Of a stretch of DNA of 64,000 bases, positions 30,231-45,586 are shown one piece after another. The translations under genes and the position numbers were made by a program. The notes under the pieces were generated by a model. That model was not told the DNA's origin and did no database searches. It saw only the letters and a program-made list of their open reading frames with translations. Each line of letters starts with the position of its first letter. Position 1 is the stretch's first letter. The DNA comes from Slackia sp. (GTDB lineage: Bacteria; Actinomycetota; Coriobacteriia; Anaerosomatales; Anaerosomataceae): contig DYEA01000016.1 in NCBI GenBank assembly GCA_020725885.1, positions 124,001 through 188,000 on the forward strand, in the 5' to 3' direction.

Positions 30231-30274
30231 CGCAAGGGCGACGTGCTGGGAAGCGATGGAGGAGCGTGGAAGCC

Positions 30275-31816
30275 ATGGCTGACAGGGTCTACATCTTCGA
30301 CACGACGCTGCGCGACGGCGAGCAGTCGCCGGGCGCGAGCATGAACACCGAAGAGAAGCTTGAGATCGCGCGCCAGCTGGTGCGGCTGGGCGTCGACGTC
30401 ATCGAGGCGGGGTTTCCCATCTCGAGCCCGGGCGACTTCGAGAGCGTGAAGCGCGTCGGCGAGGAGGTCGGGGACGCCGTCGTGGTGTGCGGGCTGTCGC
30501 GCGCGGTGCCGAAGGACATCGAGGTGGCGGCAGAAGCGCTCAAGAGCGCGAAGCGCCCGCGCATCCACACCGGCATCGGCGTGTCTGAAAGCCACCTGCG
30601 CGACAAGCTCCGTATCACGCGCGAGGAGGCGCTGGAGCGGGCAGTGGCCGCAGTGAAGCTCGCGCGGAAGTTCGTGGACGACGTCGAGTTCTACGCGGAG
30701 GACGCGGGACGTGCCGAGCCGACGTTCCTGTACCGCATGGTCGAGGCCGCCATACGCGCCGGCGCGACGGTCGTGAACATCCCGGACACGACCGGCTACG
30801 CGTACCCCGAGGTCTTCGGCGAGCTCATCCGCGGGCTGATGGAGCACGTCGACGGCATCGAGGACGTGACGGTGTCGGTGCACTGCCACAACGACCTCGG
30901 CATGGCCACCGCAAACGCGCTCGCCGGCGTGCGCGCGGGGGCTCGGCAGGTGGAGTGCACCATCAACGGCATCGGCGAGCGGGCGGGCAACACGGCGCTC
31001 GAAGAGGTCGTCATGGCGCTCAAGTCCCGCCGGGACCTCTTCGGCGTGGAGACCGGCATCAACACGCGCGAGATCATGCGCACCTCGCGCCTCGTCTCCA
31101 GCATCACCGGCATACGCGTGCAGCCGAACAAGGCGATCGTCGGCGCGAACGCCTTCGCGCACTCCTCAGGCATCCACCAGGACGGCGTGCTCAAAGAGCG
31201 GACGACGTATGAGATCATCGATCCTGCCGAGGTCGGAGCCGGCGTGTCCCGCATCGTGCTCACCGCGCGTTCCGGCCGCCATGCGCTCCGTCATCGGCTC
31301 GAGGAGCTCGGCTTCGCGCTCACCGACGACGAGTTCGAGCGCGTGTACGAGGCGTTCTTGGATGTGGCCGACAAGAAGAAGGAGGTCTACGACGAGGACC
31401 TCGAGGCCATTGTGGGCGAGAGCGAGCGCACGCTGCACGAGACGTACCACCTCCAGCAGGTGCACGTGAGCTGCGGCGAGCCGGGCATTCCGACGGCAAC
31501 CGTCGAGCTCGTCGCTGCAGACGGCCGGCACCTGATCGACTCCAGCCACGGCAACGGCCCGGTGGACGCGGTCTACAACGCCATCAACCGCATCGTGCAG
31601 GTGCCGAACGACCTCACGGAGTTCTCGGTGCAGTCGGTCACGCGCGGCATCGACGCCATCGGCGAGGTCACGATCCGGATCAGGGCCGAAGACGGCCAGG
31701 TGTTCACCGGCCGCGGCGCGCACCCGGACATCATCGTCGCGTCGGCCAAGGCGTACACGAACGCCCTCAACCGCTTGCTGTCAGCGCAGAAGAAGTCAGT
31801 CGAAGAGGAGCTGTGA
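30275..31816 (+). CDS. leuA: 2-isopropylmalate synthase
   Basis: 513 residues, long form with regulatory domain. It condenses 2-ketoisovalerate and acetyl-CoA as the committed leucine step. The N-terminus [17 protein letters not shown] and the metal motif [12 protein letters not shown] are diagnostic, as is [16 protein letters not shown]. The C-terminal LeuA dimer domain ([17 protein letters not shown] to [16 protein letters not shown]) binds leucine for feedback inhibition. ATG 30275 is preferred over GTG 30266, because GGAGGAG lies 10 bases before the ATG. Confidence 0.96.
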
Positions 31817-31834
31817 GGCTTCCGGATCGTGCCA

Positions 31835-32260
31835 TCACGGCAACCGTTCGAGGACGGCGAGGAAAGTCCTCGAGTCGACCACGCGCAGGCCGCCGGCGCG
31901 CTGCGGCATGTCGAGCAGGTGTGCGTCTCCGGTGACGACGGCGTGGGCAGCGGCGGCATTCGCCAAAGCGAGCACCACGTCGTCGTCCGGGTCAGGTGAG
32001 AGCCTGGGAACCTCGACAGGGTCCGGTTCGACGATCGCGACGCGGCGGTACCACGCCACGATCGCGACGGCATCCTCGTGCGCGATCCGCTTCGCGATGC
32101 GCGGCCGCTCGAACACGGACGCGAGCTCGTCGAGGAGCGTGGGACACGTGATCGCGTCGAAGCGGCCCTCGGCCAAGGCTCGCAAGAGCTGCGCGGGCGC
32201 TCCGTCACGCGAGAGCGCTGCAGCGACGATGACGTTCGTGTCCAGTATCGCGCGGATCAC
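31835..32260 (-). CDS. PIN-domain toxin (VapC-like, putative TA toxin family)
   Basis: 141 residues beginning at GTG 32260. The PIN acidic residues are visible: D7 in ILDTNVIVAA, E in LLDELASVF, D in PDPDDDVVLALA and D in VTGDAHLL. The fold is that of a Mg-dependent ribonuclease, commonly a translation-blocking toxin. Its start overlaps the antitoxin stop as GTGA. The pair is antisense to the leucine genes; the toxin ends 18 bases from the leuA stop. Confidence 0.88.
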   Translation of the reverse strand: MIRAILDTNVIVAAALSRDGAPAQLLRALAEGRFDAITCPTLLDELASVFERPRIAKRIAHEDAVAIVAWYRRVAIVEPDPVEVPRLSPDPDDDVVLALANAAAAHAVVTGDAHLLDMPQRAGGLRVVDSRTFLAVLERLP

Positions 32261-32487
32261 CGGCGTGCGCGGCGCGCGGCGCGCGTCTCTTCGACGGCGA
32301 GGTCGAGCGCTTCGGCCGGATCCATGGTCGCCGTCTCCCAGACTCTCTCGAGCGCGTTCAAGCCGAGGTAGTCGCGCAGCGCCTCCTCGACGACTTCGTA
32401 GTCGCGCTTGCCTGTGCGCGCGGCATACACCCGTGCCGCTCGCATGACCTCTTCGTCCACGTAGATGGTGGTGCGGGTCTTGCTCAT
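32257..32487 (-). CDS. Ribbon-helix-helix antitoxin
   Basis: 76 residues. The N-terminus [23 protein letters not shown] is the beta-strand plus helices of an RHH/Arc-type DNA-binding domain; the C-terminal part ([18 protein letters not shown]) would wrap the PIN toxin. There is no SD before the ATG at 32487, and the predicted transcript start falls on this ATG, so the mRNA appears leaderless. An inverted repeat over its promoter fits autoregulation by the toxin-antitoxin complex. Confidence 0.85.
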
Positions 32488-32489
32488 GG

Positions 32490-32513
32490 TTGCATCATAG
32501 CAGAATGGTGCAA
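32490..32513 (-). promoter_or_regulatory. Operator-like inverted repeat at the toxin-antitoxin promoter
   Basis: TTGCATCAT (32490-32498), six bases, ATGGTGCAA (32505-32513) is an inverted repeat with 8 of 9 positions matching. It covers the leftward -10 box (TATGAT, 32499-32494) and most of the spacer. Position and symmetry fit binding of an RHH antitoxin dimer pair that represses its own operon. Confidence 0.6.
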
Positions 32514-32521
32514 AAACGCAA
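32494..32521 (-). promoter_or_regulatory. Leftward promoter of the toxin-antitoxin pair
   Basis: Reading leftward: TTGCGT (32521-32516), 16 bases, TATGAT (32499-32494). Only six bases separate the -10 from the antitoxin ATG, so transcription should begin at or next to the start codon. Confidence 0.65.
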
Positions 32522-32609
32522 CCCCGCCCAGCAGAGCCTCGGGGATTTCGCGTACAATACGCAGACCGCGACATGCGAGCGCGAAACGCGTCTGGAGAAA
32601 GGATTTCCG

Positions 32610-33878
32610 ATGCCGCGTCCGATGACCATCACCGAGAAGATCCTGGCCGCTCATGCGGGGCTCGACGAGGTCGTCCCGGGGCAGCTGGTGAACTGCCGGC
32701 TCGACCTGGTGCTCGCCAATGACGTCACGGCTCCCATCGCCATCAAGGAGTTCCGCAAGGTTGGCGTCGAGCGCGTGTGGGACCCCGAGCGGATCGCGCT
32801 CGTGCCCGATCACTACACCCCGAACAAGGACATCAAGAGCGCCGAGCAGGCGAAGATGGTGCGCGAGTTCGCCCGCGAGCAGGACATCACGCACTACTAC
32901 GAGATCGGGTGCATGGGCGTCGAGCACGCGCTCTTGCCCGAGCAGGGCGTCGTGGTGCCGGGCGACGTCGTGATCGGTGCGGACAGCCACACCTGCACGT
33001 ACGGCGCGCTCGGTGCCTTCGCGACCGGCGTGGGTTCGACGGACGCCGCTGTCGGCATGGCCACCGGCGAGGCGTGGTTCAAGGTGCCGGCGTCGCTCAA
33101 GTTCGTCATCGAGGGCGAGCTCGGGTCCTGGGTGAGCGCGAAGGACGTCATCTTGCACATCATCGGCATGATCGGCGTGGACGGCGCGCTCTACCAGGCC
33201 ATGGAGTTCACCGGCAGCGCGATCTCCGCGCTCGACATGGACGGCCGCATGACCATCTGCAACATGGCGATCGAGGCCGGCGGCAAGAGCGGCATCATCG
33301 CGGTCGACGACGTGACGCGTGAGTACGTCCGCGGCCGCGCGGAGCGCGAGTGGGCGGAGTTCGAAAGCGACCCGGATGCCGAGTACGCCCGAGTCTTCGA
33401 GATCGATGCGGCGTCCATCGAGCCGACGGTCGCGTTCCCGCATCTGCCGAGCAACACGCGGCCGGTGCGTGAGGCGCGCGACGTGCGGGTCGACCAGGTC
33501 GTCATCGGCTCGTGCACGAACGGCCGGCTCGCGGACCTGCGGGTCGCGGCCGAGATCCTGCGCGGACGGCGCGTGCACCGCGACGTGCGGCTTATCGTCA
33601 TCCCGGCCACCCAGCAGATATACCGTGACGCGATGCACGAGGGGCTCATCGACGTGTTCCTCGACGCAGGGGCGGCCGTCTCGACGCCGACCTGCGGCCC
33701 GTGCCTCGGCGGGCACATGGGCATCCTCGCGGCGGGCGAGCGGGCGCTCGCGACCACGAACCGCAACTTCGTCGGCCGCATGGGCGACCCCACGAGCGAG
33801 GTCTACCTCGCGAGCCCGGCGGTTGCGGCCGCCACGGCGGTCGCGGGCCACATCGCACTGCCGGAGGACCTGGCGTAG
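32610..33878 (+). CDS. leuC: 3-isopropylmalate dehydratase large subunit
   Basis: 422 residues. It isomerises 2-isopropylmalate to 3-isopropylmalate with LeuD. Cluster ligands lie in [14 protein letters not shown] and [28 protein letters not shown] and [13 protein letters not shown] are typical. It is a clear paralogue of the protein at 16.1-17.3 kb, but the GPCLGGHMG motif and the leucine-gene context support the leucine role. Its small subunit is 7.5 kb away at 41.4 kb, across the cytochrome cassette. AGAAAGGA precedes ATG 32610. A TACAAT box at 32553-32558 may be its own -10. Confidence 0.9.
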
Positions 33879-33897
33879 CGGGAGGCGGGAGGTCGCG

Positions 33898-35691
33898 GTG
33901 GGGGAGCGGCGTCACGGACCCGGAGCCAGACCGCCAGGCAAGCCGAGGTCGGAGGCAGGACCGGGCTGGACGAGCGTCGTCCTGGTCGCGTGCGCGCTCA
34001 GCCCGCTCGTGCTGCAGCTGGTGGGGACCGATGCCGCAACGGCGGTGGACGCCGCGGCCGTCGGCGCGGGCGTCGCGGGCATCGCCGCCGCGTACGTGGT
34101 GGTGCGTGAGGGAGTTCCGATCGAGCGGCCGGTCCGGACGGTCGCGCTCCTCGGCGTTGCCTTCGTCGTGTGGTCGCTGGTCTGCGCTGCGTTCTCGGGA
34201 CGAGGGTGGTCGGCTTTCGTCGGAGAGCCGACGAACATGCTCGGGGCGCTCACGTTGGCGGCGCTTGCCGCGGTCGGCCTCGCAGCCGCGGCCCTCGGCG
34301 AGCGGCTCGTCCAAGCGCTTGGCCGCGCCGCCGTGGCGGTGGTCGCGCTGCAGGTGCTTTTCGCGGCTCCGCAGTTCGTTGCGTCGGGAACCGCTCGCGG
34401 GCTGCTCCCGAACTCCACCTACCTCGGCGAGCTCGTCGTGCTGCTGCTGCCGCTGCTGCTGGTCGAGCGAGACGGTGTGTGGAACGCGGCTGGGCGGGTC
34501 CTTGCTCCCGCGGCTGCGGCGGTCCTCGCGGCAGCGGGCAGCCGCGTGGCGGCGGCGGCCGCGGTGGTCTGGCTGGTCGTCGTATGGGCTCCCGCCGTAG
34601 CGCGGAAGCCGCAGGCCGCATGGCTGGTGAGGATCGGCGTGGTGGCTGTGGCCGTGGTGGGCGCGGCGGTGTTCTCCCGAGATGAGATCGCCTCGAGCAT
34701 AACCGCGGCCGCGCTCGGCGAGCGTCCGCAGATGTGGCAGGCGAGCGCGTGGGCAGTGGCGGCACGGCCTCTTCTCGGATACGGGCCAGACGGCTTCGTC
34801 CCCGGGGCGGCTTCCGTGCTGGATCTCGAACGCCTGCAGCGGGGCGCGCACCTCGCGCTCGGCCCGGGAAGCGCCGACCCCCACAGCGCGCTCGCGTGGG
34901 TCGCGGTCTCGTGCGGTCTGGTCGGCGCTGTGCTGTTCGCCGTGCTGGCCGCCGCGGTCGCGCGCGCGTGGCGGATCCCCGGGCGGCCGCCCGTGGCGGT
35001 GGCTGGCGCGTGGGGCGCCGCGATGGCCTTCGCGGTGTTCCTCACAGCTCCGGCGGCGCTGCAGGTGCTGCCTGCGTTCGCGCTGGTGCTGGGCGCTTCG
35101 CTCGTGCCCGGGGGCGCGCCCGCCCGCTCCCTGCAGCAGCCGCCCAGCCGGCCGGCATGGCTCCGGCCGGTGGCGTACGCGACGGCGCTCGCGTCGCTTG
35201 CGCTTGCGCTGAACGCGGGCACGCGGCTGCCGTTCGAAGTCGCAAGCGCCGACCGGTCGCCGTCGCTGGCGCCGGCAGCGCTTGCGGCAGCCCGAGCGTG
35301 GCGGGTGGATGCCCACCTGTGGTACCTCGCCTCGCTCCACAGCGGGTGGGCGGTCTGCGCCCAGGCTCCAGGAATCGAGCCGATGGCCGACCTCGCGGCC
35401 GCGCGCCGGGCGGCGTCGCTGGACCGGCGCGACCCCTGGTATGCGTTCGAGGCCGCCCGCACGCTGGCTTTCTACGGCGTGTCTGAGGCCGAGGTCGAGG
35501 CGGCGTTCGCGGAGGCGTTCCGTCGGTGGCCGGCGTTTCCGATCGCAAGGGCCGAACGGGCGTCGTGGTTGGCGCGGAGGGGCCGGACGGAGGAAGCGAA
35601 GCGGGAGATCTCGCTCGTCCGCCCCGTAGTCGCCAGCGACCCGCAGCTCGCCGAGGCGGTGCGCGCGGCGGAGGCCGCGCTCGCCCGCTGA
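33898..35691 (+). CDS. O-antigen ligase/polymerase-like membrane protein with C-terminal TPR region
   Basis: 597 residues from GTG 33898, five bases after GGAGG. About ten hydrophobic helices are followed by a soluble C-terminal third. The Wzy_C-like signature is RPLLGYGPDGFVPG, then PHSALAWVAVSCGLVG. The C-terminus (about 440-597) looks like TPR helices (AARAWRVDAHLWYLA, DPWYAFEAARTLAFYG). Such proteins join glycans to lipid A, other glycans or, as PglL-type enzymes, to proteins. It starts 19 bases after leuC and opens the cytochrome cassette, so I infer glycosylation of the exported cytochrome or of a surface polymer. The gene is exceptionally GC- and Ala-rich. Confidence 0.7.
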   Translation: MGERRHGPGARPPGKPRSEAGPGWTSVVLVACALSPLVLQLVGTDAATAVDAAAVGAGVAGIAAAYVVVREGVPIERPVRTVALLGVAFVVWSLVCAAFSGRGWSAFVGEPTNMLGALTLAALAAVGLAAAALGERLVQALGRAAVAVVALQVLFAAPQFVASGTARGLLPNSTYLGELVVLLLPLLLVERDGVWNAAGRVLAPAAAAVLAAAGSRVAAAAAVVWLVVVWAPAVARKPQAAWLVRIGVVAVAVVGAAVFSRDEIASSITAAALGERPQMWQASAWAVAARPLLGYGPDGFVPGAASVLDLERLQRGAHLALGPGSADPHSALAWVAVSCGLVGAVLFAVLAAAVARAWRIPGRPPVAVAGAWGAAMAFAVFLTAPAALQVLPAFALVLGASLVPGGAPARSLQQPPSRPAWLRPVAYATALASLALALNAGTRLPFEVASADRSPSLAPAALAAARAWRVDAHLWYLASLHSGWAVCAQAPGIEPMADLAAARRAASLDRRDPWYAFEAARTLAFYGVSEAEVEAAFAEAFRRWPAFPIARAERASWLARRGRTEEAKREISLVRPVVASDPQLAEAVRAAEAALAR

Positions 35692-35753
35692 CCGCCGTCT
35701 GCGCGGCACGGGCTTTGCTACAATACCGCACGCTGTCTCGTGGAAGGGTTCAC

Positions 35754-36491
35754 ATGTCGAGAGTCGTCTCGAGGGATCTTGCCCGCCTGCAACGCGGGAA
35801 TCGCATGCTCGTCATCGCCTTGCTGGGCACAGTCGTCGTGATGCTCGCCGCCATCCTGTGGGCTGTCGCCACGGTCCTTCCGCAACGAGACACGCCCAGG
35901 ACCTTCGTGGAGCGTCAGCTCGCCATGCTCGAGCGTGTCGTCAAGGAGAAGCCCAAGTCTGAAGAGGCATGGGCGGACTACATACTCGCCCTCGTCGCTG
36001 CGAAGCAGTACTCGAAGGCCCAAGCGGTGATCGCGCAGGCGGAGAAGGCCGTCGGCAAGGACGTCGTCGACATCCTCTACGTCCGGGCCAGGCTCGCGCA
36101 CGCACGCGGCGATCGCGGCGAGGCCGAGCAGCTCGTCAAGAAGGCGATCGACTCAGGGCTTGCGTTCCGTCAGAAGGAGCTTGCGCGTCTGGCCGAGCAG
36201 GCGACGTTTCCTGATCCACACGTGATCAAAGGCAAGGTCCTCGCGTCGGCGTACTACTTCCAGGCGCAGCTGCTGGCGGAGAAGAAGCAGTGGCAGGAGG
36301 CCGCCGAAGCGCTCACCAAGTCGCTGGCAGAAGAGCCCGCGTCGGCAGACGCGCTCGTGTTCCGGGGCAACGTCTACCTGGAGCTTTCCGAGACGGCCTC
36401 CGCGACGGCCGACTTCCGGCAGGCATTGAAGTACATCCCCGGCTTCCAGCCGGCTCTTGACGGACTCAAGAAGGCGGGTGCAGCCAAGTGA
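35754..36491 (+). CDS. Membrane-anchored TPR protein
   Basis: 245 residues. A single N-terminal helix (MLVIALLGTVVVMLAAILWAVATVLP, quoted in part: LVIALLGTVVVMLAAILW) is followed by tetratricopeptide-type helices from about residue 60 to the end, for example AWADYILALVAAKQYSKAQ and ADALVFRGNVYLELSET. The domain should face the outside. It resembles the TPR tail of cytochrome c-biogenesis factors and assembly scaffolds. It overlaps the NHL gene by four bases, so the two products probably act together, perhaps assembling or exporting the cytochrome encoded next. A TACAAT box (35719-35724) lies upstream, without a good -35. Confidence 0.75.
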   Translation: MSRVVSRDLARLQRGNRMLVIALLGTVVVMLAAILWAVATVLPQRDTPRTFVERQLAMLERVVKEKPKSEEAWADYILALVAAKQYSKAQAVIAQAEKAVGKDVVDILYVRARLAHARGDRGEAEQLVKKAIDSGLAFRQKELARLAEQATFPDPHVIKGKVLASAYYFQAQLLAEKKQWQEAAEALTKSLAEEPASADALVFRGNVYLELSETASATADFRQALKYIPGFQPALDGLKKAGAAK

Positions 36492-37753
36492 GCGATGATC
36501 GCGACATCGTGGCCGCCTCCGGTTCGCCGGAGCGCGACGAGCGAGAAGACGAGCGTGCGTACGAGCGGGCGCGCCGGACGCGCCTGATCCTCGCTGGCGG
36601 GCTCGTGGTGCTGTTCTTCCTCCTGATCGCCGTCCTGGCGTTCGTGGTACGCATCGCGACTCCCGTGGGCCGTCCTTCCACTGAGGAGATTCCGGAAGGG
36701 CTTACCTGGGTCCGCTCGATCTACGGGTGGGGGCCTGGAGAAGACCAGCAGTTCGGCGGCCCCACCGACGTGGGTGTCGGTCCTGACGGGACGATCTGGG
36801 TGGCCGATTCGCAGCGCTTCCAGATCGTCGGGTTCACGCCGGCCGGGACGTTGAAGCAGATCCTGACTCTGGGCCCCGGAGCGATGTTCCCGCAGTCGTT
36901 CGACGTGGCGGAGAACGGCGAGATCTACGTGTGCGATTTCGCGCACGATCGCATCGTGGTGCTGACCCCCGACAACCGGCTCGTCCGCGAGTGGAAGGTG
37001 CAGTTGCCGATGGAAGTCGCCGTCCGCGGCGACCGTGTGGCAGTGGGGTCGCGCTTCGGCGTGGCCGTGTACGACCGCCAGGGCAACGTGATCTCGTACT
37101 GGGGCTCCGGAGGCTCGAAGGAAGACCAGTTCGACGTGGTGCGGGGCGCAGCCATCGGACCCGACGGCACGTTGTACTTCTCTGACACGCAGAACCATCG
37201 TCTGAAGGCCTACGACGAGCGCGGGACGTTGAAGTGGGTGTACCCGAGTCCTGCGGAGGCCGCCCGCTTCGCCAAGGCGAGCGTCGAGGAGACGGCGACG
37301 AAGAAGCCCTTCCAGATACCCACCGGCATGACCTTCGACGCTGCCGGGCGGTTGCTCGTGACCGACCCCTTCGAGTTCGCGATCATGAGCATCGACACGC
37401 GCAACGGGCACGTGCTTCAGCGCTGGGGCGAGTTCGGCGAGAAGGACGGGTATTTCGCGTACCCCACCTCGATCGACTACGATCCCGTGCGCGACTGGTA
37501 CGTCGTCGCAGACACGGCGAACCGGCGCGTGCAAATCGTGCGGATCGAAGGCAGCGGCGGCGGGCCGGGCGCCGCATTGCGGCGCGCGTGGACGGGTCCT
37601 GCGTGGGCGTGCTACGGGCCGCTCGTTTTGCTGCTGCTTGCTGTGATCATCGCCGTGTCTGGTCGGCGACGTCGCGGAGAAGCCGCAGACGAATGGGCAA
37701 GCAAGGGCGACGAACGGGAATCCGCAGACCTTTCGTCGCCCACTCAGGCATGA
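36488..37753 (+). CDS. NHL-repeat beta-propeller protein with two membrane anchors
   Basis: 421 residues from GTG 36488, overlapping the TPR gene stop as GTGA. A charged N-terminal tail precedes a helix (LILAGGLVVLFFLLIAVLAFVV). Then comes a six-bladed NHL propeller with repeats such as GPTDVGVGPDGTIWVADSQ, AIGPDGTLYFSDTQNHRLK and WYVVADTANRRVQIVRI. A second helix near the C-terminus (YGPLVLLLLAVIIAVSG) is followed by a basic/acidic tail. The propeller would lie outside the membrane. NHL and TPR genes recur beside extracellular cytochrome filament genes, so a role in cytochrome assembly or secretion is a reasonable inference. Confidence 0.82.
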   Translation: MSDDRDIVAASGSPERDEREDERAYERARRTRLILAGGLVVLFFLLIAVLAFVVRIATPVGRPSTEEIPEGLTWVRSIYGWGPGEDQQFGGPTDVGVGPDGTIWVADSQRFQIVGFTPAGTLKQILTLGPGAMFPQSFDVAENGEIYVCDFAHDRIVVLTPDNRLVREWKVQLPMEVAVRGDRVAVGSRFGVAVYDRQGNVISYWGSGGSKEDQFDVVRGAAIGPDGTLYFSDTQNHRLKAYDERGTLKWVYPSPAEAARFAKASVEETATKKPFQIPTGMTFDAAGRLLVTDPFEFAIMSIDTRNGHVLQRWGEFGEKDGYFAYPTSIDYDPVRDWYVVADTANRRVQIVRIEGSGGGPGAALRRAWTGPAWACYGPLVLLLLAVIIAVSGRRRRGEAADEWASKGDERESADLSSPTQA

Positions 37754-37757
37754 AGGC

Positions 37758-37786
37758 TTGTGCAATACTGAACTTGAGCCGATAAT
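37758..37786 (+). promoter_or_regulatory. Promoter of the hexahaem cytochrome gene
   Basis: TTGTGC (37758-37763), 17-base spacer, GATAAT (37781-37786), starting just after the NHL gene stop. A start near 37793 would give a 5' leader of about 70-100 bases. This allows the exported cytochrome to be made at much higher level than the upstream assembly genes. Confidence 0.7.
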
Positions 37787-37860
37787 GGTCGCGAGCATGG
37801 ATGCTTCGCTTCGATAAGGAGCGTGCAGGATTCTTAAGCGAAAGGAGGTGCTTACTGTCT

Positions 37861-39003
37861 ATGCGAAACAACGACATGGAGAGGGGAACGCACATGATCC
37901 GTAAGTCAACCATCATCGTCGCGGCTGTGGCTGTGATGGTGCTCGCGTTCGCTGCGTCCGCGTACGCTATCGGCCCGGTGTACATTACATGGAACGCCGG
38001 TGGCAACAACTCGGGCACGGGCGGGCCGCACCAGAACTACCAGCTCACGACGGAGAAGTGCGCCGTGTGCCACTCGGTGCACGCGGCTGCACCTTCGAAC
38101 GCTGCGGCCGGGCAGTTCGGCCCGGATTCGACAGGCGCTGCAGAGACGCAGCTCTTGCTGCGCTCGTCGGTGGCTGACGCCTGCACCTACTGCCACATCA
38201 CCTCGAACGTTGCGGGTCTGCAGATCTACAACGCTGTGGCATCGAACTACCAGACCGATGACCAGTACGGCCACAATGGCAGCACGTCGGCTGAGTGCGC
38301 CGACTGCCACGCGGTGCATGGCGCCGACACGTTCAAGGGCTACATCGCCGGCAAGATCCTGAAGGCCAACAGCAACCTGGTGAGCAACGTGAGCGGCGGC
38401 GTGCAGACGGAAGCCGCTGCCACGCTGAACACGCTGGTCTCTACCGGAACGGTCTTCACGGCGCCTGCCGCTGCAGACGGCGACCTGCAGGTCACCGCGT
38501 TCTGCACCCGGTGCCACAAGACGTTCTCGGACGCCTCCGAGACGACCATCACGGCTTCGGGCTACTTCTCGAACTGGAACGGCACGACGACGTTCGGTGC
38601 CCGCGACTATAAGAACCACCCGTTGAAGGCCGCGGAAGCCACATTCGCGGCATCGGGCGCCAACTACACCGGCCGTGTTGCGTGGGCCGATGCGCAGACC
38701 TGCCGTTCGTGCCACGCGGCTGGCGACACCCGCGTGTCGACCTCGTACGGCGGTTCGGGCGGCGTTGTCGCGTGGTCGTTCCCGCACTGGACGAACGGCA
38801 ACGCGTCGTTCCTGGTGTCCGGCTGGGGCGTCAACGACGCGAACATCGGCATCCTGGACGACCACCAGGCGAGCACCGGCAAGCCTGCTGGCTCGCACAG
38901 CGTGGCTGACGGGGCGGAGGACGGCGTGTGCTTGCGCTGCCACACCAACGGCTCGACGGGCGCGCCGAACGACGCGACCGCTGGCGTGAACGTCACGTTC
39001 TAG
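37861..39003 (+). CDS. Exported hexahaem c-type cytochrome (candidate filament-forming or surface cytochrome)
   Basis: 380 residues from ATG 37861 (AAAGGAGGTG upstream), or 369 from ATG 37894 (GAGGGGAA upstream), which gives a compact signal peptide (IIVAAVAVMVLAFAASAYA). Counting from 37894, six haem motifs occur: CAVCH 56-60, CTYCH 97-101, CADCH 135-139, CTRCH 204-208, CRSCH 270-274 and CLRCH 346-350. Eight other His residues (46, 63, 127, 142, 242, 298, 324, 335) are enough for bis-His ligation of all six. Two motifs are extended as CxxCHxVH, as in cytochrome filaments of the OmcS/OmcE kind. The rest is Gly/Ala/Ser/Thr-rich with no membrane anchor, so the protein should be released or assembled outside. 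Filament formation is inferred, not shown. Confidence 0.9.
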   Translation: MRNNDMERGTHMIRKSTIIVAAVAVMVLAFAASAYAIGPVYITWNAGGNNSGTGGPHQNYQLTTEKCAVCHSVHAAAPSNAAAGQFGPDSTGAAETQLLLRSSVADACTYCHITSNVAGLQIYNAVASNYQTDDQYGHNGSTSAECADCHAVHGADTFKGYIAGKILKANSNLVSNVSGGVQTEAAATLNTLVSTGTVFTAPAAADGDLQVTAFCTRCHKTFSDASETTITASGYFSNWNGTTTFGARDYKNHPLKAAEATFAASGANYTGRVAWADAQTCRSCHAAGDTRVSTSYGGSGGVVAWSFPHWTNGNASFLVSGWGVNDANIGILDDHQASTGKPAGSHSVADGAEDGVCLRCHTNGSTGAPNDATAGVNVTF

Positions 39004-39051
39004 GCACAGAGAGCACGGTCCTTCGCGCTCAGTGTGCTGAAGGGACCACGA

Positions 39052-39081
39052 GGGCGAGGCCTGGTCCTCCGGGCCTCGCCC
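39052..39081 (+). terminator. Terminator after the hexahaem cytochrome gene
   Basis: GGGCGAGGCC (39052-39061) pairs with GGCCTCGCCC (39072-39081) around a ten-base loop, followed by CCTTTCCTGT. A weaker hairpin (GGTCCTTC around 39018 with GAAGGGACC around 39039) lies just before it. Together they should separate the strongly expressed cytochrome from the two large cytochrome genes. Confidence 0.65.
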
Positions 39082-39112
39082 CCTTTCCTGTATCGTGCGC
39101 GACACGCGGAGC

Positions 39113-40132
39113 ATGATCATCGGCATGACGACTCCGGAACACGGCCCAGACCCCCTCGCTGCGCGTCCGCGGTGTCCGAATCGCGGGGCGCTGGCGGTCG
39201 TCGCGATCGCCGCCGTGACCGTCGTGCTCGTGCTCGGGGGCGGGTCGACGCGTGCAGCCTGCGCCGTGTGCCATCGTGGACTTGGGGGTGCCGCGGGCGC
39301 GGCTCCCGGCCACGCGCGCCTCTCGTGCTACGCGTGCCACCTCGGACGCGGGGCTGCCGACTGGCCGTCGTTCAAGGCGCGCGAGCTCTTCGTGATGTAT
39401 CCGAAGGCCGTCGCGGGCGCCGGCCTGACGTACGGGCCTGCTCCGGTCGAGCGAGCGGCGTGCCTGCGCTGCCACCGGCGCGTGGCCGATTCTGTCGTCG
39501 AAGCGAACGGGATCCGCGTCGACCACCGCGCGTGTGCCGCCGACCGGCCGTGCGGCGATTGCCACGGCGCGTCCGCTCACGGCTCCGCGCTGCGGTGGAG
39601 CAAGCAGCCGGTGATGGAGGAGTGCGTGGCCTGTCACCGGGCAGCCGGCTCGCCCACGGAGTGCGACTCGTGCCACGTCGAGCACACCGAGCGGGAACGT
39701 CTCGCGAAAGGCCCCTGGCAGATCACGCACGGTGCGAACTGGTCCAAGACGCACGGCATGGGCACCTTGCAGTGGTGCGCGACGTGCCATCCGTCCGGCT
39801 ATTGCGTGCGGTGCCACGGCGTCGGGCTCCCGCACCCGGCCGACTTCGGGCGCACGCACGGCGCGCTCGCGAAGGCCCCGAAGGCGGCGTGCCGTTCGTG
39901 CCACGACGAGGCGCTGTGCGACGGCTGCCACGGCGTGCCCATGCCGCACCCCGAGGGCTTCCTCGTCCGCCATTCGAGCGAGGCGTCGTCGTCCGCTGAC
40001 CCCAAGTGCCTCTCGTGCCACATCCAGAAGGACTGCCAAGCGTGCCACGAGATGCACGTCCACCCGGGCTCGACCGAAGGCACGGCCCGGCTGCCGCGTC
40101 CCGAGGACGTAGGGCTGGAGGGCACGCCGTGA
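39113..40132 (+). CDS. Dodecahaem c-type cytochrome, membrane-anchored
   Basis: About 339 residues with 12 CxxCH motifs in order: CAVCH, CYACH, CLRCH, CGDCH, CVACH, CDSCH, CATCH, CVRCH, CRSCH, CDGCH, CLSCH and CQACH. An N-terminal helix (ALAVVAIAAVTVVLVLGGG) ends four residues before the first haem region, acting as a signal or anchor. Two motifs are extended as CHG-x2-[ML]PHP-x2-F, also seen in the next protein. It would carry electrons between membrane and cell wall. The start is uncertain: GTG 39095, ATG 39113 and ATG 39125 are all in frame and none has a strong SD. Its stop overlaps the next GTG. Confidence 0.85.
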   Translation: MIIGMTTPEHGPDPLAARPRCPNRGALAVVAIAAVTVVLVLGGGSTRAACAVCHRGLGGAAGAAPGHARLSCYACHLGRGAADWPSFKARELFVMYPKAVAGAGLTYGPAPVERAACLRCHRRVADSVVEANGIRVDHRACAADRPCGDCHGASAHGSALRWSKQPVMEECVACHRAAGSPTECDSCHVEHTERERLAKGPWQITHGANWSKTHGMGTLQWCATCHPSGYCVRCHGVGLPHPADFGRTHGALAKAPKAACRSCHDEALCDGCHGVPMPHPEGFLVRHSSEASSSADPKCLSCHIQKDCQACHEMHVHPGSTEGTARLPRPEDVGLEGTP

Positions 40133-41289
40133 GCGCTCTTTGGCGTGACATCCAACGGCTGGCCGGGCTTATCGGCGAGGTCATCGCGGCCCCGACTGCG
40201 AATCTGAGCGCCGCCTTGCTGCTGCTCGCAGCCCTCGCGCTGCTGCTGCTGATCGTCGTGACCGTGATCGCGCTGCTCGTCCTGCCGTCCCCGAAGCCGC
40301 CGCGGAAACGTGCGCGAGCAGCAGGCGTGGAGCTGCAGAGGGACGGGAAGACGGTAGCGAGGCGTCGCGCACGGGCGCCGCTGATAGCGGTGCTCGTGAC
40401 GGTTGCGCTTGCGCTCGGGTACGCGGGGACGGGCACCGACCAGTTCTGCGTCTCGTGCCATGCGGACCTTGCGATGGCGAGCGCGGCCGGCTCGTCTGGA
40501 TCTACCGAGACGCCAGGTCCGGCGAACCTCCACGGCGAGGTCCGGTGCGTCCGTTGCCATGAGGAAACGCTGCCGATCGGGTTGGTGTCCAACGTCGCCG
40601 CACGGATCCGGTTCGGTGTCAGGTACGCCATGGGAGCGGATCCGAACGACGGCGTTGCGTCTGTGCCCACGCGCCGGTGCGTCGGCTGCCACCGGACGAT
40701 CCTGGACAGGACGACCGAGTCCAGCGAGACCGGTGTAGCGATGTCGCACGCTGAGCCGGTGCGTTCTGGCGTGCCGTGCCTCGAGTGCCATAAGAACGCC
40801 GGGCACAGGAGCGGATCGCAGGGCGTGTCGATGAATACCTGCTTGCGATGCCACGACGGATCGCAGGCGTCTGCGGAATGCTCCGCGTGCCACACGAAGG
40901 ACACCGCGTTCGCGGTCCGCACCCGGCGTACTTTCTCGTTCGTCCACCTGCCGCCCGTCACGGACTGCGGCGGCTGCCACGACCAGCGCTCCTGCGACGC
41001 GTGCCACGGGCTCCGGATGCCGCATCCGAAGGATTTCCTCGATGGCGAGCACGCTCGGCAAGCGGGTTTCGAGAAGAAGGAGCTGTGCTGGCGCTGCCAT
41101 ACCTATCTCGAATGTGGGAAGTGCCACGCCGTCAAACCGCCGGGACAAGGCGCGTGGGGCCATGGCACCGGCGATTGGTGGCGCAAGGAGCACGGCCGCT
41201 CGACGCCTAAAGGCGCGCAGACCGGATGCGGCTGCCATGGCCGCAGCCCGTACGCGCGTGCCGGCAACTACTGCAAGGCGTGCCATTAA
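40129..41289 (+). CDS. Undecahaem c-type cytochrome with two N-terminal membrane helices
   Basis: 386 residues from GTG 40129, overlapping the previous stop as GTGA. Two hydrophobic segments (LLLLAALALLLLIVVTVIAL and APLIAVLVTVALALGYAG) precede 11 CxxCH motifs: CVSCH, CVRCH, CVGCH, CLECH, CLRCH, CSACH, CGGCH, CDACH, CWRCH, CGKCH and CKACH. One more motif, TGCGCHGR, is CxCH and may or may not bind haem. The final CKACH is the exact C-terminus. The layout, with membrane helices then haems outside, resembles quinol-oxidising NapC/CymA-like cytochromes in principle, although the haem number is far higher. It is a likely electron entry point from menaquinone. Confidence 0.85.
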   Translation: MSALWRDIQRLAGLIGEVIAAPTANLSAALLLLAALALLLLIVVTVIALLVLPSPKPPRKRARAAGVELQRDGKTVARRRARAPLIAVLVTVALALGYAGTGTDQFCVSCHADLAMASAAGSSGSTETPGPANLHGEVRCVRCHEETLPIGLVSNVAARIRFGVRYAMGADPNDGVASVPTRRCVGCHRTILDRTTESSETGVAMSHAEPVRSGVPCLECHKNAGHRSGSQGVSMNTCLRCHDGSQASAECSACHTKDTAFAVRTRRTFSFVHLPPVTDCGGCHDQRSCDACHGLRMPHPKDFLDGEHARQAGFEKKELCWRCHTYLECGKCHAVKPPGQGAWGHGTGDWWRKEHGRSTPKGAQTGCGCHGRSPYARAGNYCKACH

Positions 41290-41361
41290 GGCAGGCGGCG
41301 TTCTCGCGAATCGCCTCGTGCGTGGTACAATCCCGCCACTTCGGAGGCGAGGAGGCGCGCG

Positions 41362-41859
41362 ATGAAGTTCGAAGGCACCGCACACCGCTACGGCCGCGAC
41401 ATCGACACGGACGTGATCATCCCGGCCCGGTATCTCAACACGAGCGATCCGGACGAGCTGGCGGCCCACTGCCTCGAGGACCTGGATCCGGCGTTCGTGC
41501 AGAAGGTCCAGCCCGGCGACATCCTCGTCGCTGAGGAGAACTTCGGGTGCGGCTCCTCGCGCGAGCACGCGCCGATCGCCATCAAGCACGCGGGGGTCGC
41601 TGCCGTCGTCGCCAAGAGCTTCGCGCGCATCTTCTACCGCAACGCCATCAACACCGGGCTTCCGATCTTCGAAGCGCCGGAAGCCGTCGACGGCATCCGT
41701 GCCGGCGACCGCGTGGCGATCGACGCGGATGAAGGCGTCATCACGAACCTCACGACGGGCGAGTCGTGGCAGGCGCAGCCGTTCCCGCCGTTCATCCGCG
41801 AGATCATCGAGCGCGGCGGGCTCGTCGCGTACGCGCGGGAGAAGGTGGCGGGCCGGTGA
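41362..41859 (+). CDS. leuD: 3-isopropylmalate dehydratase small subunit
   Basis: 165 residues, partner of the LeuC at 32.6 kb. Motifs: [21 protein letters not shown] (substrate loop YLNTSD), [12 protein letters not shown] and [27 protein letters not shown] box (41326-41331) lies 30 bases before the ATG and probably gives the gene its own promoter after the cytochrome cassette. It overlaps leuB as GTGA. Confidence 0.93.
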
Positions 41860-42974
41860 GCGCGCCGCAGGCCGCCTGCCGCATCTGCCTGCTGCCGGGC
41901 GACGGCATCGGCCCGGAGATCACCGCTGAGGCCGTCAAGGTGCTCGAGGCCATCGGGAGCCGCTTCGGCGTGCGCTTCGAGTTCACAGAGGCGCTGCTCG
42001 GCGGAGCGGCCATCGACGCCACCGGCACCGCGCTGCCCGACGAGACGCTCGCAGCTGCGAAAGCTGCAGACGCCGTGCTGCTCGCCGCCATCGGCGGGCC
42101 CAAGTGGGACACCACGGACCCCGACAAGCCACGGCCGGAGCAGGGGCTGCTCGGCATCCGCAAGGCGTTGGGGCTGTACGCGAACCTCAGGCCCGTGCGC
42201 ATCTTCGAGCCGCTCAAGGGCGCGAGCACGCTCAAGCCCGAGGCGCTCGAAGGCGTCGACATGCTCATCGTCCGCGAGTTGACCGGCGGGCTGTACTTCG
42301 GCCCGCGGGCGCGCGAGCGTGACGTCGAGGGCGCGGCTGCAGGCGGCGCGCGCGGGATGCGCGCCTACGACACCTGCGTGTACTCGGAGCTCGAGATCGA
42401 GCGCATCGCTCGGGTGGCGTTCGAGGCCGCGCGCACGCGGCGCGGGCGCGTGCACTCGGTCGACAAAGCCAACGTCCTCGAGTCGAGCCGCCTGTGGCGC
42501 GAGGTCGTCCACCGCGTGCACGCGGCGGAGTACCCGGACGTCGAGCTCCTCGACCAGCTGGTCGACAACACTGCGATGCAGCTCATCCGCTACCCGGCGC
42601 AGTTCGACGTGGTGCTCACCGAGAACATGTTCGGCGACATCCTCTCGGACGAGGCGTCGATGCTCACCGGCTCGCTCGGGATGCTCGCGAGCGCGTCGCT
42701 GGGCGACGGCACCGCGCTCTATGAGCCGAGCCACGGCAGCGCGCCCGACATCGCCGGCCAAGGGGTGGCGAACCCGCTCGCCATGCTGCTCTCGGTCGAG
42801 CTGATGCTCCGTCACTCGTTCGGCATGCACGAGGCGGCAGACGCGCTCGCTGCGGCCATCGACGGCGTGCTCGCGGACGGCTGGCGCACCCGCGACATCG
42901 CGGACGAGACCACGCTTCCGCAGCGCACGGTCGGCACTGCCGCGATGGGCGACCTGGTAGCTGAGCGGATCTGA
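41856..42974 (+). CDS. leuB: 3-isopropylmalate dehydrogenase
   Basis: 372 residues from GTG 41856. It oxidises and decarboxylates 3-isopropylmalate to 2-ketoisocaproate. The substrate signature is [16 protein letters not shown], and the coenzyme loop [18 protein letters not shown] carries the Asp-Ile of NAD-dependent enzymes. This contrasts with the paralogous dehydrogenase at 17.9 kb (S-x-N-x3-R and Lys-Tyr). It is translationally coupled to leuD. Confidence 0.97.
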
Positions 42975-43011
42975 GGCGCAAGACCGGCCGGTCTCACGGC
43001 GCTCTCAAGTG

Positions 43012-43040
43012 TTCGCGCACGGCCTGATACGCGCTACTAT
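43012..43040 (+). promoter_or_regulatory. Candidate promoter before ilvE
   Basis: TTCGCG (43012-43017), 17 bases, TACTAT (43035-43040). The -10 is good and the -35 weak. A 14-base perfect palindrome, AGACCGGCCGGTCT (42981-42994), lies 17 bases upstream of the -35 and could be an operator or the end of the leuB transcript. Confidence 0.4.
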
Positions 43041-43085
43041 TACCATTCACACTGCTGTATGCCAGCGAGTCGGAAGGGGAGCGCG

Positions 43086-44003
43086 ATGGCCAGCCTGCCG
43101 AGAGTCGATTACATCTGGATGGACGGCGAGCTCGTCGAGTGGGAGAAGGCGACCGTCCACGTCCTTACGCACGCGCTGCACTACGGCTCCGGCGTCTTCG
43201 AGGGCATCCGCTGCTACGCCACCGCCGACGGTCCTGCGATCTTCCGGCTGCGCGACCACATGGAGCGGTTCGACCGCTCTGCGAAGATGTTGATGATGGA
43301 TCTCGGCATGAGCGTCGACGAGATCTGCGAGGCCGTCAAAGAGACAGTGCGGGCGAACAAGCTCCCTGAGTGCTATATCCGTCCGATCGCCTTCCGCGGC
43401 TACGGCGTGATGGGTCTCGACCCGATCCCTGCTCCGGTGCAGATCGCCATCGCGGCCTGGCCGTGGGAGACCTACATGGGCGAGGAAGCGCTCACGCGCG
43501 GCGTCGACGTCGGCATCTCGTCGTGGCGTCAGCGCGGCATCAACTCGCTGCCGCCGGCGATCAAGGCCACCGGCAACTACCTCAACTCCTCGCTCGCGCG
43601 CGTCGAGGCGAACCGCCACGGCTACAACGAGGCCATCCTCCTGAACGAGGAGGGCAAAGTCTGCGAGGGCACCGGCGAGAACATCTTCGTCGTGCGCGAC
43701 GGCGTGATCTCCACGCCGCCGGTCTCCGACGGCATCCTCGAGGGCATCACGCGCGACTCGATCATGGTGATCGCTGATGACCTTGGCTACCCGGTCATCG
43801 AGGAGTCGCTCGTCCGCACCGACCTGTACGCCGCCGACGAGGTCTTCATGACCGGGACGGCGGCCGAGGTCGTGCCGGTGCGCTCGGTCGACGGACGCGT
43901 GATCGGCGACGCCGGCCCGATCACGCTCGAGCTGCAGAAGACGTTCTTCCGCGTGGTGCGGGGCGAGGAGCCCGACTACGAGGAGTGGCTGGAGCGGGTG
44001 TAG
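43086..44003 (+). CDS. ilvE: Branched-chain amino acid aminotransferase
   Basis: 305 residues, fold-type IV PLP enzyme. It makes Val, Leu and Ile from the keto acids using glutamate. Motifs: HALHYGSGVFEGIRCY (with the substrate-pocket Tyr), IKATGNYLNSSLA (Lys forming the PLP Schiff base), EAILLNEEGKVCEGTGENIF and VFMTGTAAEVVPV. ATG 43086 follows GGAAGGGGA; an upstream ATG at 43059 has none. The cimA start overlaps its last base. Confidence 0.96.
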   Translation: MASLPRVDYIWMDGELVEWEKATVHVLTHALHYGSGVFEGIRCYATADGPAIFRLRDHMERFDRSAKMLMMDLGMSVDEICEAVKETVRANKLPECYIRPIAFRGYGVMGLDPIPAPVQIAIAAWPWETYMGEEALTRGVDVGISSWRQRGINSLPPAIKATGNYLNSSLARVEANRHGYNEAILLNEEGKVCEGTGENIFVVRDGVISTPPVSDGILEGITRDSIMVIADDLGYPVIEESLVRTDLYAADEVFMTGTAAEVVPVRSVDGRVIGDAGPITLELQKTFFRVVRGEEPDYEEWLERV

Positions 44004-45586
44004 TGGTCGTCCTCTACGACACGACGCTTCGTGACGGGACGCAGCGGGAGGGCATGTCCCTCTCGGTGGAGGACAAGCTGCGCGTCGCGCAGCGCCTCGA
44101 CGACCTCGGCATCCGCTACATCGAAGGCGGCTTCCCGGGCTCCAACCCCAAAGACATGGAGTTCTTCGAGCGCGCACGGCATCTCGCGCTCGCGAACGCG
44201 ACGATCGTGGCGTTCGGGGCGACATGCCGCAAGGACCTCGCGCCAGAACGGGACGCCGGCCTGCAGGCGCTGCTCGACACTGGGTGCGAGGCGCTCTGCA
44301 TCTTCGGCAAGGCGTGGGACCTCCACGTGACCGAGACGCTCAACGCCTCGCTGGAGGAGAACCTGCGCATGGTGCGCGAGAGCGTCGCGTACCTCAAGTC
44401 GCACGGCAAGACGGTGTTCTTCGACGCGGAGCACTTCTTCGACGGGTACCTGCACAATGCCGGCTACGCGATCGAGGTCTGCCGCGCGGCGGCCGAGGCC
44501 GGGGCCGACGCAGTGGTGCTGTGCGACACGAACGGCGGCACGCTGCCGCAGGCGGTGCACCGCATCGTGCTCACGATGGCGAACGAGATCGACGTGCCGC
44601 TTGGCATCCACGCGCACAACGACGGCGGCTGTGCGGTGGCCAACTCGCTGCTTGCGGTCGATGCGGGCTGCACCCACGTGCAGGGCACGATGAACGGCTA
44701 CGGCGAGCGCGCCGGCAACGCCGACCTCACGGCCATCATCCCCGCGCTCAAGCTCAAGATGGGGCTCGAGTGCGTGACCGACGACGAATTGCGCCTGCTC
44801 ACGGAGGTCTCGCACTTCGTCGCGGAGACCGCCAACATCTCGCCCAACCCACACCAGCCCTACGTCGGCGCGAGCGCATTCGCGCACAAAGGCGGCGTGC
44901 ACGCGAGCGCTGCGGCGCGTCTGCCGGGGGCGTACGAGCACGTCGACCCGGCGCTCGTCGGCAACATGGCCCGCGTCGTGGTGAGCGAGCTTGCGGGCCG
45001 GGCGTCGCTCGTGCTCAAGGCGCACGAGATGGGCATCACGCTGTCGGTCGACGACCCCGAGACGAGCCGCATGCTCGACGAGATCAAGCGCCTCGAGCAC
45101 CAGGGCTACACCTTCGAGGCCGCGGATGCGTCGCTCGAGATCATGCTGCGCAAGTCGTTCGGCACCTACGAGCCGTTCTTCCGGCTCGAGTCGTTCCGCG
45201 TGATCATGGAGAAGCGGGAGGACGGCAAGGTGATGACCGAGGCCACCATCAAGGTGCACGTGTCCGGCCACCGGTTCATCGCGACGGCAGAAGGAAACGG
45301 CCCCGTGAACGCGCTCGACAAGGCGCTGAGGATCGCGATCGGCCGGTTCTATCCGGCGCTGGACGCCATCGAGCTCACGGACTTCAAGGTGCGCGTGCTC
45401 GACGAGAAGAAGGGAACGGCTGCCGTCACCCGCGTGCTCATCGAGTCGAGCGACGGCGAGAAGAGCTGGGGGACGGTCGGCGTCTCGGAGAACATCATCG
45501 AGGCGTCGTGGGAGGCGCTCGTCGATTCGGTCGAGTACGGCCTGATGCACCCGAGGCAGGAAACCGGGCAGCCTGAGCGAATGTGA
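44003..45586 (+). CDS. cimA: (R)-citramalate synthase
   Basis: 527 residues from GTG 44003. It condenses pyruvate and acetyl-CoA to citramalate, giving a threonine-independent route to 2-ketobutyrate and isoleucine. It begins VLYDTTLRDGTQREGMSLS and has GGFPGSNPKD, DAEHFFDGY, GIHAHNDGGCAVANSL and GTMNGYGERAGNADL, features of the CimA branch rather than LeuA. The C-terminal domain should bind isoleucine. LeuCD and LeuB can process citramalate in such pathways, which fits its place at the end of this cluster. Confidence 0.93.
   Translation: MVVLYDTTLRDGTQREGMSLSVEDKLRVAQRLDDLGIRYIEGGFPGSNPKDMEFFERARHLALANATIVAFGATCRKDLAPERDAGLQALLDTGCEALCIFGKAWDLHVTETLNASLEENLRMVRESVAYLKSHGKTVFFDAEHFFDGYLHNAGYAIEVCRAAAEAGADAVVLCDTNGGTLPQAVHRIVLTMANEIDVPLGIHAHNDGGCAVANSLLAVDAGCTHVQGTMNGYGERAGNADLTAIIPALKLKMGLECVTDDELRLLTEVSHFVAETANISPNPHQPYVGASAFAHKGGVHASAAARLPGAYEHVDPALVGNMARVVVSELAGRASLVLKAHEMGITLSVDDPETSRMLDEIKRLEHQGYTFEAADASLEIMLRKSFGTYEPFFRLESFRVIMEKREDGKVMTEATIKVHVSGHRFIATAEGNGPVNALDKALRIAIGRFYPALDAIELTDFKVRVLDEKKGTAAVTRVLIESSDGEKSWGTVGVSENIIEASWEALVDSVEYGLMHPRQETGQPERM

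Follow-up and report, generated by a model that had tools for sequence, protein, structure and literature searches.

The inter-subunit haem ligand of OmcS, the polymerising hexahaem cytochrome of Geobacter sulfurreducens, is His16 of its first CxxCHxxH motif. In the osc cluster, the companion gene cluster of omcS, OscD is a beta-propeller and OscH a prolyl isomerase. OcwA is a surface cytochrome of Thermincola. In OmcS, eleven of the twelve axial histidines were reported to be intra-subunit and the remaining one, on haem 5, to be supplied by an adjacent subunit (PMC6584659), and OscD was described as a morphology factor (PMC13194489). According to a further report, haem packing is common to OmcE and OmcS without recognisable sequence likeness, and OmcZ filaments form without inter-subunit ligation (PMC9473688).

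Gene, haem motifs and axial ligands

An ORF scan of the window, the whole stretch of 64,000 nucleotides that was analysed, gave an open frame at 37801-39003 on the forward strand. The best start in this frame is ATG 37894, with a likely ribosome binding site, AGAGGGG, at 37880-37886 (+), 7 nt ahead of it. A preliminary description of this DNA had rightly recognised a gene here, although it had counted from 37861, another in-frame ATG 33 bases off the best start. The gene (37894-39003, +) encodes a hexahaem c-type cytochrome with a predicted signal peptide of 25 residues (37894-37968) and a mature chain of 344 residues (37969-39000) that begins IGPVYITW. The signal peptide was the sole hydrophobic stretch in the hydropathy analysis, indicative of a secreted protein without a membrane anchor. 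Six CxxCH motifs, at mature positions 31, 72, 110, 179, 245 and 321, contain all 12 cysteines of the mature chain, and Gly, Ala, Ser and Thr together make up 46.5% of its residues. The motif count, the composition and the absence of an anchor were thus as first described, as was the extension of two motifs to CxxCHxVH, namely CAVCHSVH and CADCHAVH. The claim that the protein has the haem density of OmcS did not hold: the hexahaem protein is denser, with 57.3 residues per haem as against 67.8 in OmcS.

The motifs, located by a motif scan and in the alignment, are all on the forward strand: CAVCH of haem 1 at 38059-38073, CTYCH of haem 2 at 38182-38196, CADCH of haem 3 at 38296-38310, CTRCH of haem 4 at 38503-38517, CRSCH of haem 5 at 38701-38715 and CLRCH of haem 6 at 38929-38943. 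The last His of the two CHxVH extensions lies at 38080-38082 (H38, haem 1) and 38317-38319 (H117, haem 3). Eight non-motif histidines were counted in the mature chain (21, 38, 102, 117, 217, 273, 299 and 310), in agreement with the preliminary description, which had regarded two of them as spare. An alignment of 24 hexahaem sequences from related loci, with duplicates and one paralogue left out, showed twelve invariant His columns (24/24): the six CxxCH histidines together with H21, within a PH pair at 38029-38031, H38, H102 (38272-38274), H117, H217 (38617-38619) and H273 (38785-38787), all on the forward strand. H299 and H310 are not conserved. With exactly six invariant non-motif histidines, there is one ligand per haem, not a choice of six out of eight. 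Two relatives (L019, L030) contain exactly twelve histidines in total. Six strict CxxCH motifs are found in 21 of the 24 aligned sequences; the exceptions (L008, L010, L028) have a longer motif at haem 5, CxxxCH, and L028 also has a longer one at haem 6. The six motifs and six distal histidines are retained down to approximately 32% identity, so that chance is not an issue. Bis-His ligation of all six haems is therefore well supported by the invariant columns. AlphaFold2 monomer models reached a mean pLDDT of 29.9 (11 aligned members) or 34.9 (12, with a compact relative leading) and were not used.

Comparison with known families revealed resemblances to several of them. Similarity to OmcS (PDB 6EF8, 6NEF) is weak in sequence and profile searches, and is common also to NrfH and the reaction-centre cytochromes. 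The two proteins share six c-type haems, a Gly/Ala/Ser/Thr-rich mature chain (42.5% in OmcS) and CxxCHxxH at haems 1 and 3. However, OmcS has CxxCHxxH also at haem 5, there is no clear homology, and OmcS uses a Gram-negative secretion route and is an established polymer, whereas polymerisation of the hexahaem protein is hypothetical. A search for OmcS in plasmids gave no match. OmcE and the archaeal extracellular cytochrome filaments are likewise secreted multihaem chains with bis-His haems, but OmcE has four haems. A domain-level match to the OmcA/MtrC family (TIGR03507/PF22113) exceeds the Pfam cut-off; however, the hexahaem protein lacks beta-barrel domains and a lipoprotein anchor, and with 33.4 bits against a TIGR03507 cut-off of 209.3, and six haems rather than ten, it is not a member. 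The doubled CXXCH domain PF09699 was matched over its cut-off (37.7 vs 20.6 bits). A YajL/deglycase match at residues 161-220 falls on the Ala/Thr-rich loop and was put down to composition.

The surrounding cassette and its relatives

The hexahaem gene is the third of five cassette genes, all on the forward strand. A TPR protein (35754-36491; Pfam TPR, one N-terminal hydrophobic segment, frame open from 35526) is followed by an NHL-repeat beta-propeller (36488-37753; Pfam NHL 1.2e-19, hydrophobic segments at residues 29-63 and 369-394), the hexahaem cytochrome, and then two multihaem cytochromes, each with an N-terminal hydrophobic segment predicted to anchor it in the membrane. The first of these has 12 CxxCH motifs and a weak NrfH match (39095-40132). 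The second has 11 CxxCH motifs and is NapC/NrfH-like (40129-41289; frame open from 40000, with GTG 40129 as its probable start), with Cytochrom_NNT and Cytochrome_C7 both over cut-off (NapC/NirT family). As omcS lies near the propeller gene oscD, the hexahaem gene adjoins a beta-propeller gene; a Pfam scan of 13 neighbouring frames found no prolyl isomerase of the OscH kind.

Among ten related loci, the complete order from TPR to 11-haem gene is intact in four (L003, L004, L005, L006), and two more (L009, L012) have the same order with the 12-/11-haem pair turned round. The cassette of L007 is cut by a contig end, and the hexahaem gene is the only cassette gene seen in L008, L010 and L011. The TPR gene adjoins the NHL gene in 7/10 loci. 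In a survey of 61 genomes (its own and 60 relatives), the hexahaem protein was found in 52 at E 1e-3. An NHL match lies within 8 kb of 35 of the 48 typed hexahaem hits, and in 31 of the 48 it is on the same strand and no more than 510 bp upstream, a tight linkage to a propeller gene; the other 13, some of them at contig ends, have no NHL match within 8 kb. Among the matches listed, a 12-haem gene lies within 8 kb of at least 27 of the 48. Across the phylum, 5 of 296 sampled genomes yielded the family, three of the same genus and two others: one locus from another family of the phylum (L099) has NHL, TPR, 12-haem and 11-haem genes near its hexahaem gene, and the other (L098) showed only a seven-motif relative. 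The cassette is a conserved unit of Anaerosomatales (Actinomycetota).

The hexahaem module also occurs fused behind FG-GAP repeats (L074, 3e-68; L075, 3.4e-55) and behind a YNCE propeller (L076, 2.5e-4), giving surface cytochromes of approximately 780-920 residues. Histidines corresponding to H21 and H38 are retained in the fused modules. Tandem hexahaem paralogues, some with long insertions and with frames of up to 608 residues, were observed in L009, L077 and L078, where they adjoin the usual cassette partners.

The cassette interrupts a run of leucine-biosynthesis genes (window 30266-45586) comprising LeuA-like, aconitase-family large and small parts, Iso_dh and aminotransferase genes, and is inserted between the aconitase-family gene and the C-terminal partner of that gene. 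The same interruption is seen in L003 and L004, and on the upstream side only in L005. Ahead of the cassette and after the aconitase gene, 33877-35691 encodes a multi-spanning Wzy_C (O-antigen-ligase-like) protein, and a similar frame adjoins LeuB in L004. As the Wzy_C gene does not hold this position in L004, L005 and L006, it was not counted as a cassette member.

Several relatives have a described biology. The uncultured EMTCatB1 (Coriobacteriaceae sp.) is reported to be dominant, alongside a methanogen, on a thermophilic biocathode; its multihaem gene 1d0125 is given in the top 10% of biocathode transcripts, its V-ATPase genes are numbered 1d0031-37, and the passages on the closed-circuit-induced cluster name 1d0898 and 1c0642, not 1d0125 (PMC7943316). 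In the first 200 kb of EMTCatB1, the direct strand has three multi-CxxCH frames and no more. All three are cassette genes (hexahaem, 12-haem and 11-haem), so 1d0125 is among them. In a crude gene count, inexact in that the 12-haem gene was never called, the hexahaem gene was direct gene 125 in the first run (range 120-129 over 16 settings) and V-ATPase D was direct gene 37 (range 35-38 over the same settings). By this counting, 1d0125 is probably the hexahaem gene of EMTCatB1, which lies at 148,093 of BDLO01000001.1.

Parvivirga hydrogeniphila is described as a cultured, obligate Fe(III) reducer that grows on ferrihydrite, with pili-like appendages of 0.8-0.9 nm diameter noted on ferrihydrite only, not on Fe(III)-citrate, and the isolates of Anaerosoma and Parvivirga have a Gram-positive wall (PMC9686372). 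The same report describes clusters in these two genera (MCK8115470-72, MCL4078710-12) of an MtrA homolog beside two quinol-oxidising multihaem cytochromes, and states that Anaerosoma tenue carries a three-cytochrome cluster yet does not reduce Fe(III) (PMC9686372). The published clusters are probably the cassette locus, and that of A. tenue is taken to be the same locus: both have three neighbouring cytochromes, two of quinol-oxidising type and a third. The third is labelled an MtrA homolog in the passages describing those clusters, whereas here it is a secreted hexahaem protein; a propeller, a TPR protein, the ligand pattern and secretion do not come up in those passages.

A second cassette with a probable selenoprotein cytochrome

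On another contig (C17), the same genome contains a second cassette, with genes for a 12-haem cytochrome, a 10-haem cytochrome, an NHL protein and a secreted cytochrome. The secreted protein is a heptahaem cytochrome (L041:83-2026; G000:C17:199882-201825, outside the window) with an N-terminus like that of the hexahaem protein, and no NCBIfam model scored over its cut-off on it. An in-frame TGA follows HDAQPRH. TGA was observed at the same site in all 13 homologues (L043-L055) and likewise in a fourteenth gene (L122), and the paralogues L120, L121 and L123 have Cys there. A hairpin is predicted approximately 10-15 nt behind the TGA in L043-L055, and visual comparison of the species showed substitutions in both arms of its stem. 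The genome contains a tRNA-Sec (74.1 bits), and ARAGORN found a tRNA-SeC in the homologous locus L073. The Sec-containing c-type cytochrome families listed in a 2026 review are ExtKL and the octahaem tetrathionate reductase type (PMC13188914). The heptahaem protein is probably a new family of selenoprotein cytochromes. Also on C17 (L040:3389-9155 of G000:C17), a frame with 14 CxxCH motifs is followed by one of 1392 residues with 33, a very large multihaem cytochrome.

Proposed role of the hexahaem protein

We propose, with a probability of roughly 0.77, that the cassette serves extracellular electron transfer in a Gram-positive-type actinobacterium and that the hexahaem protein forms its outer, secreted part. 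Support for this role comes from the gene, its motifs, the invariant ligands, the secretion signal and the cassette, as well as from the abundant biocathode transcript 1d0125, if that is indeed the hexahaem gene. Weighing against it are the absence of 1d0125 from the genes named as induced by the closed circuit, the 13 typed hits with no NHL match within 8 kb, and the reported failure of A. tenue to reduce Fe(III) although it probably has the same locus. From their NapC/NrfH likeness, the 11- and 12-haem membrane cytochromes would exchange electrons with the membrane quinol/redox pool and would pass them, presumably by direct contact, to the secreted protein. The latter would relay them across the wall and outwards to minerals, electrodes or partners, and in the opposite direction, perhaps, on a cathode. 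Electrons are thus very probably moved across the Gram-positive cell wall by the hexahaem protein and its membrane partners. A neighbouring gene found fused elsewhere is a classic hint of contact. Because of the tight linkage and the natural propeller fusions, the membrane-anchored NHL propeller and the TPR protein may act in export, assembly or docking of the hexahaem protein.

Such a relay need not polymerise. A wall-associated or released relay, or terminal Fe(III) reductase, with a role like that of OcwA, falls only just short of an even chance. It would account for the MtrC/MtrF II/IV domain match over the Pfam cut-off (43.3 vs 30 bits) and for the fusions of the module with propellers, as expected of surface proteins, and all ligands can be intramolecular. 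However, no anchor, sortase or S-layer signal was seen on reading the mature chain, so that retention would need the NHL and TPR proteins or the 12-/11-haem partners. An MtrA-like conduit inside an outer-membrane barrel was also considered, as an MtrA homolog is named beside two quinol-oxidising multihaem cytochromes in both isolates (PMC9686372). This was rejected as highly improbable: the wall of the isolates is reported to be Gram-positive (PMC9686372), the protein has six haems rather than ten, and DmsE/MtrA TIGR03508 gave no match at E 0.1.

The relay could instead take the form of an OmcS/OmcE-like filament, in which monomers stack head to tail and H38 would act as ligand to a haem in the following subunit, giving a continuous haem wire outside the wall, a tentative reading that we consider somewhat improbable. 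It is favoured by the exact match of six invariant distal histidines, H38 included, to six haems, by secretion without a membrane anchor, as in known cytochrome filament subunits, and by the order of haems 1-4, CxxCHxxH/CxxCH/H/CxxCHxxH/CxxCH, which is the same as in OmcS. The beta-propeller partner gene points the same way, the tandem hexahaem genes of L009, L077 and L078 recall omcS/omcT, and the lack of a prolyl isomerase among the neighbouring frames scanned is a point against the parallel. The profile evidence is divided. In the PDB, the 24-row profile ranked OmcS second (E 1.7e-4, haems 3 and 4 aligned in register), but NrfH slightly outscored it (9.6e-5), an 11-row profile gave OmcS only E 7.8, the single sequence gave no OmcS match, and hhalign of the family with OmcS gave a 50-column stretch out of register. 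Since packing is alike in OmcE and OmcS without sequence likeness, poor similarity does not exclude a filament, and since OmcZ dispenses with inter-subunit ligation, six intramolecular ligands alone would not exclude one either. The propeller-fused modules keep the equivalents of H21 and H38, although an N-terminal domain of that size ought to get in the way of stacking. The Parvivirga appendages, reported on ferrihydrite only (PMC9686372), would suit a filament, but the diameter given for them does not fit OmcS. Moreover, type IV pilus-type (T2SSE-type) ATPases and prepilin-like genes were found in 4/4 genomes of the genus. The appendages were therefore rejected as proof of nanowires, as they could be ordinary pili. 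A literature search found no description of the hexahaem family as a filament. The fuller picture of a Gram-positive cytochrome nanowire, in which a hexahaem polymer, lying outside a wall that has no outer membrane, would be charged directly by the 12-/11-haem cytochromes and assembled by the NHL and TPR proteins, with the parallel cassette adding a selenocysteine-bearing cytochrome, is a shade more speculative still.

Electron passage through the thick Gram-positive wall is poorly known. The order-wide cassette, in which membrane multihaem cytochromes are paired with a single secreted hexahaem protein and a membrane-anchored propeller, offers a testable unit, both in cultured relatives growing on ferrihydrite and in the uncultured relative dominant on a biocathode. 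Should the hexahaem protein polymerise, it would put to the test whether nanowires can assemble without any Gram-negative export machinery.
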